Shown here in pieces: positions 10,024 to 10,109 of a stretch of DNA of 20,116 nt. Under the pieces are notes generated by a model, which saw nothing but the letters and a program-made list of their open reading frames with translations, made no database searches and was not told the DNA's origin. Both the position numbers and the translations under genes were made by a program. The stretch covers positions 1-20,116 of IMG/VR virus record IMGVR_UViG_3300020472_001552. One strand, written 5' to 3'. The stretch is from a virus. Positions within the stretch are counted from its first letter, which is position 1, and the number at the start of each line of letters is the position of its first letter.

Positions 10024-10109
10024 CTGTGAGGGAAGGAGTCGAACCTTCAAGTCCCGCCAGGAACAGTAGCTAAACAGGCTACCACGTTTACCAGTTTCGT
10101 CACCTCACA
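10024..10109 (-). tRNA. tRNA with anticodon GUU (Asn), long variable arm
   Basis: The minus-strand sequence folds completely: a 7-bp acceptor (TGTGAGG/CCTCACA, all paired), T8 G9, a 3-bp D stem (ACG/CGT) with an 11-base loop carrying GG, G26, a 5-bp anticodon stem (GTAGC/GCTAC), loop CTGTTTA, a 17-base variable arm with its own stem (GTTCC/GGGAC), a 5-bp T stem (GAAGG/CCTTC), loop TTCGACT, and G73. CCA is not encoded. Loop positions 34-36 are GTT, which reads AAC and AAU (Asn). The D arm and long variable arm match tRNA-Leu architecture, and position 37 is U instead of the usual purine. Leu-type body with an Asn anticodon is odd, so the amino acid assignment is less certain than the tRNA call. 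It lies 10 bases after the AsnRS-like gene and 24 bases before the psbA -35 box. Confidence 0.88.

Follow-up and report, generated by a model that had tools for sequence, protein, structure and literature searches.

A miniature class IIb synthetase-like enzyme and a tRNA with an asparagine anticodon on a leucine-type body are encoded next to each other on the same strand of a marine cyanophage genome, and we regard this two-gene tRNA/enzyme module as real with near certainty. It was found as a unit in differing genomic settings, with purifying selection acting on the enzyme and structural constraint on the RNA. The window, i.e. the whole stretch of DNA analysed here, comprises 20,116 nucleotides of the IMG/VR record IMGVR_UViG_3300020472_001552 and harbors the following features.

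10024-10109, minus strand: tRNA with a long variable arm, GUU anticodon, U1-A72 and G73, CCA not encoded (ARAGORN, Rfam RF00005, conservation and covariation).
10049-10065, minus strand: variable region of 17 nt that forms a stem, TTCC/GGGA (3/3 modelled pairs changed on both sides; 98.9% of cells paired).
10072, minus strand: U37, where ordinary tRNA-Asn has A37 (invariant in 29/29 sequences of the tRNA alignment).
10073-10075, minus strand: anticodon G34 U35 U36 (read directly from the sequence; GUUU at positions 34-37 in 80/80 tRNA loci retrieved with the variable-arm pattern).
10084-10100, minus strand: leucine-type D arm, ACG-AAACTGGTAAA-CGT (matches of the tRNA covariance model outside the family are tRNA-Leu).
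10114-10134, minus strand: hairpin AGTGCTCT-CTCAT-AGAGCACT, which holds the enzyme stop codon just ahead of the tRNA (hairpin count across loci).
10120-10917, minus strand: class IIb synthetase-like protein of 265 aa, T4-GC 194 'tRNA ligase', phrog_29758 (PF00152, PHROG, structure model and structure match).

The sole tRNA that ARAGORN called in the window was a tRNA-Asn(gtt) on the minus strand (10023-10110), and the match to the Rfam tRNA family (RF00005) spanned exactly 10024-10109 on this strand (49.4 bits, E 4.6e-08; gathering threshold 29). Read 5' to 3', the tRNA is TGTGAGG TG ACG-AAACTGGTAAA-CGT G GTAGC-CTGTTTA-GCTAC TGTTCCTGGCGGGACTT GAAGG-TTCGACT-CCTTC CCTCACA G and forms a full cloverleaf with an acceptor stem of 7 bp and a D stem of 3 bp closing an 11-nt D loop. 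The preliminary description had listed a fold without mismatches, the 3-bp D stem with its 11-base loop, a stemmed variable arm of 17 bases, the GUU anticodon, G73, U1-A72 and U37. All of these were recovered on reading the sequence; the minus strand and the synthetase-like partner gene on the same strand had been overlooked. LeuRS requires A73. The window tRNA has the long variable arm and D-arm pattern of bacterial tRNA-Leu, but G73 instead of A73, U1-A72 and the asparagine anticodon GUU instead of a leucine one. With tRNA-Asn it shares GUU, U1-A72 and G73, but not the short variable loop or the purine at position 37, as the variable region has 17 nt (up to 38 nt in the relative L158) and position 37 is U. 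E. coli tRNA-Asn had been stated beforehand to have U1-A72 and G73, and 9/10 ordinary tRNA-Asn(gtt) genes combined U1-A72, G73 and GUU; these genes have a short variable loop and A37.

To place the tRNA among other tRNAs, a covariance model of it was scanned over 35 enzyme-bearing genomes or records. The best matches yielded 20 loci, comprising five of the GUU type, one of a GUC type and 14 ordinary tRNA-Leu. Since the nearest outsiders are tRNA-Leu (14/14) and ordinary tRNA-Asn shares U1-A72 and G73, the tRNA is, judged by its sequence, leucine-type in its body and asparagine-type at its ends. This fits the earlier proposal of a leucine tRNA recast for asparagine, and U1-A72, G73 and GUU are invariant.

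The tRNA lies far outside what chance would produce: it recurred in P-SSM2, P-SSM5 and P-SSM7 and in dozens of IMG/VR contigs; relatives that ARAGORN misnamed or skipped were taken from the DNA directly. Conservation of GUU, G73 and the long arm in homologous phages had been suggested as a check, and all three were kept. In an alignment of 29 sequences (the window, 25 phage loci and three MAG loci) standard pairs occupied 99.9% of 667 cells, compared with 41-48% in slid controls. Changes on both sides were found in 20/23 pairs, including 3/3 in the variable arm, and all five helices covaried. The observed covariation score was reached by 0/500 shuffles, a figure that does not represent a probability as the sequences are akin. 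U1, A72, G73, U8, G9, A14, A15, G18, G19 and G34-U35-U36-U37 were invariant. Among the 80 tRNA loci the anticodon loop read CTGTTTA in 64, TTGTTTC in 14 and CCGTTTA, with C33, in two. U37, together with C33 in some relatives, is odd and poor for a decoding tRNA. A shifted loop reading UUU (Lys), as in the ARAGORN call 'Lys' for one relative (L047), was rejected, since a five-pair stem with GUU at 34-36 was present in every parsed relative. No sign of a four-base GUUU anticodon or a frameshifting role was found, the loop having the ordinary seven bases.

The enzyme gene ends 10 bases upstream of the tRNA. Its product matched Pfam PF00152 (tRNA-synt_2, the class II D, K and N synthetases; E 2.4e-13) and belongs to PHROG family 29758, whose function is unannotated. 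The relatives in P-SSM2 and P-SSM7 constitute T4-GC 194 'tRNA ligase', which in a comparison from 2010 occurs in these two alone among the cyanophages compared (PMC3037559). All nine NCBIfam matches lay far under their cut-offs, with 21.6 bits for the asnS model against a cut-off of 342.6. The protein consists of the catalytic core only, and an anticodon-binding domain is absent. An alignment of 67 relatives served as the basis for a structure model (pLDDT 92.6, pTM 0.90) and for pocket comparison. The best solved VIA match of the model was human AsnRS (8h53; Z 26.1, rmsd 2.2 over 241), followed by Pyrococcus horikoshii AsnRS (1x54, Z 25.0; also the top Foldseek match), AspRS (Z 24.9), archaeal asparagine synthetase A (Z 23.5) and GenX (Z 22.6). 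As Z gaps within 1 count as ties, AsnRS and AspRS cannot be told apart by fold alone. A PDB sequence search with the window protein alone as query gave no match.

Motif 2 (R88, E90) and the motif 3 arginine (R259) are kept in the enzyme. At the side-chain pocket AspRS has the string QLF/YKQ and LysRS ELYLK, AsnRS has a non-lysine residue followed by glutamate, and the enzyme has QMWLE; L67, E68 and R203 were present in 67/67 rows of the alignment. In a survey of pockets across synthetases (PMC7387524), AsnRS contacts the amide via Glu and Arg and, through water, a leucine. Based on these residues, the pocket is predicted to be of the asparagine type. Phage enzymes showed a median dN/dS of 0.118 (range 0.02-0.22; 1,093 pairs with dS 0.1-1.5) and are very acidic, with a mean net charge of -18.5 (82 proteins). 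A defence role was unsupported, as PADLOC matched 0 families with three proteins.

Linkage of the two genes was analyzed in both directions. Scanning IMG/VR with the enzyme gave at least 590 relatives, of which the best 80 (L005-L084) were kept. A complete tRNA lay downstream in 76/80, usually 10-18 bases past the matched end; in two further loci (L076, L084) the contig stops within the tRNA and in another two (L031, L049) before it, so that all enzyme loci with room for a tRNA had one (78/78). The reverse search, started from the variable arm (TGTYYCTGGCGGGACTTG), yielded 80 loci out of 119 stretches. Every tRNA with room had the enzyme upstream (67/67; 65 within 60 nt, two at about 100 nt); the 13 loci with less than 810 bases upstream, where no enzyme was found, are excluded from this count. 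The two sets overlap and mostly contain proteins 80-100% identical to that of the window, so that the events are not independent. A protein search with the enzyme identified nine phage records. Among them were P-SSM2, P-SSM5 and P-SSM7, all of which also bear the tRNA. Another three records came from huge phages (735,411 bases in two of them, 484,177 in the third). For two huge phages with enzymes 46-47% identical, no tRNA was found within the following 330 bases.

The module was encountered in different surroundings. In the window these are T4-like marine cyanophage genes, i.e. psbA (PF00124), SAICAR synthetase, a ferredoxin-type protein and a subtilase, along with long repetitive ORFs resembling tail fibres by eye, and the module lies beside psbA. 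In P-SSM7 it follows a tRNA cluster and precedes gp3, and in P-SSM2 it precedes a lipase; the published tRNA count of P-SSM2 is 1 (PMC3037559). A perfect sigma-70-type promoter (TTGACA, 17 nt, TATAAT) lies in the interval between tRNA and psbA (10000-9972, minus strand). The enzyme stop codon was spanned by a hairpin with a stem of at least five pairs, counting G-U, in 83/83 phage loci; in a control with re-dealt 3' parts, such hairpins averaged 56.2 loci and never exceeded 65 in 100 rounds. The stems interchange among phages (GCCCT/AGGGC, GCTCT/AGAGC, GCACT/AGTGC). As a guess, this hairpin may guide processing of the tRNA.

What the two genes do together can be approached from these features. 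The enzyme probably charges the window tRNA with some amino acid, and the chances are about even that it loads asparagine onto its own tRNA as a phage pair. The charged product would possibly be used for decoding, which we place somewhat below even, and a role in supplying the amino acid to a metabolic reaction is clearly less likely. Charging for decoding is our first choice, narrowly, over a metabolic use of the tRNA and over separate jobs of the two genes. According to this model, the small enzyme would activate asparagine with ATP and transfer it to the window tRNA. As an anticodon-binding domain is lacking, the tRNA would be recognised by U1-A72 and G73 and probably also by the long variable arm. 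The combination of a leucine-type body and G73 should exclude LeuRS and may exclude host AsnRS. The product, Asn-tRNA(GUU), would belong to the phage alone. Its simplest use would be the reading of AAC and AAU while host tRNA-Asn is in short supply or cleaved, and the U37 loop would perhaps evade host modification or anticodon nucleases. Decoding is favoured because GUU is invariant although the enzyme has no domain that reads it, whereas U37 and C33 would be unfavourable for efficient decoding. The two-way linkage, the differing settings, the invariant ends and G34-U37, the AsnRS-type pocket, AsnRS as best match, the low dN/dS and the single tRNA counted in P-SSM2 argue for a pair; the absent anticodon-binding domain, the acidic phage proteins, the huge phages without the tRNA and U37/C33 argue against it.

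Relatives of the enzyme were also obtained from bacterial genomes, where a scan gave 114 relatives, of which 80 were kept; bacterial relatives are 51-63% identical. A GUU-type long-arm tRNA was located near five of these 80 copies, namely L158 (+25), L173 (+7), L190 (+153), L159 (+194) and L236 (+228), the last with imperfect acceptor ends, and was absent beside the enzyme in the other loci of the 80. The contig of L159 clearly belongs to a T4-like phage, with a T4-type DNA polymerase and primase, and that of L173 is likely phage, given its phage-family genes. In a quick tree from a short search, the label 'tRNA adjacent' had to switch twice to account for the five tRNA-near copies and the phages, and the huge-phage rows formed long branches. 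When genomes with unlinked enzymes were searched for the window tRNA, only two long-arm chromosomal tRNAs with U1-A72 and G73 emerged, both with the anticodon GUC, in Aureispira (G008, L260) and a member of the Chitinophagales (G009, L246). Their variable regions have 64 and 46 nt, respectively, neither was called by ARAGORN, and L246 had no Rfam match at the gathering threshold. Their link to the enzyme is one of co-occurrence, in 2/6 Bacteroidetes genomes searched with a T-arm pattern. Of the pattern matches these two were read as tRNAs, and on this basis no long-arm tRNA with U1-A72 and G73 was found in the other four genomes (G007, G012, G014, G021). Among eight patescibacterial loci (L176, L182, L184, L188, L191, L210, L231, L237), two features come up repeatedly downstream of the enzyme: a gene of the DNA polymerase III tau/gamma type and a tRNA-Gln(ttg).

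Clustering of the genes next to the bacterial copies revealed that the two commonest neighbour families, identified with Pfam, are PyrE/PyrF (23/80 loci) and PyrD (19/80). Either was present in 28/80 and both in 14/80. Eight of the loci are phage-like or cluster with phages or tRNA-linked copies (L158-L162, L173, L190, L236); with these omitted, either family was present in 26/72. In the complete genome of Pasteurella atlantica (L203) the enzyme lies between pyrD and pyrF, and in L215, L219 and L227 the order is enzyme-pyrF-pyrE-pyrD-prs (prs by eye). Copies in pyrD/pyrE/pyrF operons, in genomes mostly without CarB and PyrB, include L203, L164, L215, L219, L227, L213, L224 and L163, among others. 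Pyrimidine genes were surveyed in 25 enzyme genomes outside the eight omitted loci, many of them incomplete MAGs or reduced symbionts, and in 14 control genomes. PyrB exceeded the cut-off in 1/25 enzyme genomes (G023) versus 14/14 controls, CarB (E at most 1e-100) was detected in 2/25 (G006, G008) versus 14/14, and PyrC of the TIGR00857 type exceeded the cut-off in 0/25 versus 11/14, with PyrC-like genes below it (about 198-261 bits) in 6/25. The eight other MAGs, those of the omitted loci, had PyrB over the cut-off in 6/8. Within one Bacteroidetes order (198 genomes) the enzyme was found in 8 genomes, PyrB (E 1e-45 or better) in 169 and both in 0. PyrB was thus present in 0/8 genomes with the enzyme versus 169/190 without (hypergeometric about 8.5e-8, ignoring shared ancestry among the eight). 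Given the missing genes and the mutual exclusion of enzyme and PyrB across these 198 genomes, the family in bacteria very likely takes the place of the CarAB-PyrB section of the pyrimidine pathway.

There is an atom balance consistent with such a role, as dihydroorotate equals asparagine plus CO2 minus water. If asparagine were converted to dihydroorotate, N3 would derive from its amide nitrogen and N1 from its amino nitrogen, and an asparagine-binding, ATP-using enzyme could supply PyrD without CarAB, PyrB and PyrC. Whether or not the family forms a new entry to pyrimidines, in which asparagine, bicarbonate and ATP would give dihydroorotate or a precursor and replace CarAB, PyrB and sometimes PyrC, seems to us evenly poised. 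Since the bacterial copies lie in pyrimidine operons, are tRNA-less and have the same pocket, tRNA charging may not be the job of the family. Phage and pyrimidine-linked copies showed few consistent differences, one of them at position 89 next to R88. None affected the catalytic motif residues or L67, E68 and R203, so that the chemistry of the bacterial enzymes may persist in the phage enzyme.

The phage module might therefore be metabolic, an explanation we consider unlikely though the strongest of the alternatives: the enzyme would produce a precursor of pyrimidines, and the tRNA, as a tRNA-Asn privatised for this reaction, would act as carrier, substrate or regulator. Glutamyl-tRNA serves as amino-acid carrier in haem synthesis. 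By analogy, the private phage tRNA-Asn could carry the amino acid for dihydroorotate synthesis, a version we hold to be still somewhat less probable. In favour of a metabolic module are the PyrD, PyrE or PyrF neighbours in bacteria (28/80), the mostly missing PyrB and CarB with the 0/8 versus 169/190 distribution of PyrB, the lack of a clear difference between phage and bacterial pockets, and small DHO_dh-like genes near two tRNA-linked copies. One of these genes (L158:1276-1965, 229 aa) lies 63 nt upstream, the other (L173:5324-6025, 233 aa; under the Pfam cut-off) about 1 kb downstream of the enzyme, and a relative of these proteins is present in the 595-kb phage record LR756511. However, no match for the phage-type DHO_dh-like protein was obtained in P-SSM2 and P-SSM7, most bacterial copies have no dedicated tRNA alongside, the reaction derives from atom counting, and the bacterial survey includes many incomplete MAGs or reduced symbionts and the sub-cut-off PyrC-like genes. 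With tblastn at E 1e-4, no pyrimidine genes were found beside the cyanophage copies of the enzyme. In the phage collection PyrE gave no match, and the PyrD-like matches listed there, 20 out of 21, all came from Listeria, Enterococcus and gut records, not from cyanophages.

Separate functions of the two genes were considered improbable. Here a metabolic enzyme would ignore the tRNA, which would be charged by host AsnRS, via GUU and G73, or by SerRS, via the long arm, and whose altered loop would let it resist host tRNA nucleases. Phage tRNAs with altered anticodon loops have been proposed to evade anticodon nucleases (PMC10264068). The acceptor end and anticodon are those of tRNA-Asn, and a phage enzyme could be dispensable for charging. 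Yet the enzyme was upstream of all 67 tRNAs with room, and unrelated neighbours are unlikely to stay joined across this divergence and in at least three settings, so that the strict linkage argues against separate jobs. A decaying or fortuitous tRNA-like sequence, the refuting case named in the preliminary description together with loss of the anticodon in related phages, has a negligible chance and was rejected, since the odd blend of leucine body, asparagine anticodon and U37 that might suggest it is countered by covariation in five helices, identity positions conserved without exception in the relatives and the strict linkage to the enzyme.

Returning to charging by a private pair, the closest known system is that of bacterial AsnRS and tRNA-Asn, with which GUU, U1-A72, G73, the class IIb core and the AsnRS-type pocket are shared. 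The phage tRNA differs from it by the long variable arm, the leucine-type D arm and U37, and the enzyme by the missing anticodon-binding domain and its asnS score far below the cut-off. Archaeal asparagine synthetase A (PDB 3rex, 3p8t; Z 23.5) likewise has an AspRS/AsnRS-like core without anticodon domain, but the phage enzyme reached only 18.9 bits against a family cut-off of 389, and its family is linked to the tRNA in phages and to pyrD, pyrE and pyrF in bacteria. GenX/EpmA, the EF-P lysine ligase, is also a free-standing class IIb core (Z 22.6), but its LysRS-type pocket is absent from the phage enzyme, which scored 18.8 bits against a cut-off of 264. Huge phages encode synthetases alongside tRNA variants as well, and the accessible part of PMC7162821 states that these synthetases are thought to charge phage tRNA variants; the window enzyme differs in being a catalytic core only, paired one-to-one with one tRNA, and this part of the paper describes no such pair. 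In the open-licence PubMed Central literature, as far as its texts were accessible, neither the tRNA/enzyme pair nor a synthetase-like pyrimidine enzyme was found described.

If the pair charges as proposed, it would be a compact aminoacyl-tRNA pair of natural origin that works without an anticodon-binding domain and is spread in marine cyanophages, and it would illustrate how an old tRNA body acquires another amino-acid identity through a new acceptor end. Should the family instead act in pyrimidine synthesis, the textbook pathway would have an unrecognised bypass in Bacteroidetes, Patescibacteria, a Pasteurella and further organisms, and this bypass would have been coupled to a tRNA in phages. 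In either case a gene labelled 'tRNA ligase' since 2010 is now directly testable in the isolates P-SSM2 and P-SSM7.

Further unusual tRNAs were observed in phage records. P-SSM7 (L001:3871-3943) and L025 carry a UAA 'tRNA-Leu' of just 73 nt with a short variable loop, a mirror image of the window tRNA. In the huge phage LR756508 (L398) a long-arm tRNA with U1-A72 and G73 has the loop CTTTGGA; it was called Pro(tgg) by ARAGORN, and under a normal seven-base loop reading its anticodon is UUG (Gln).
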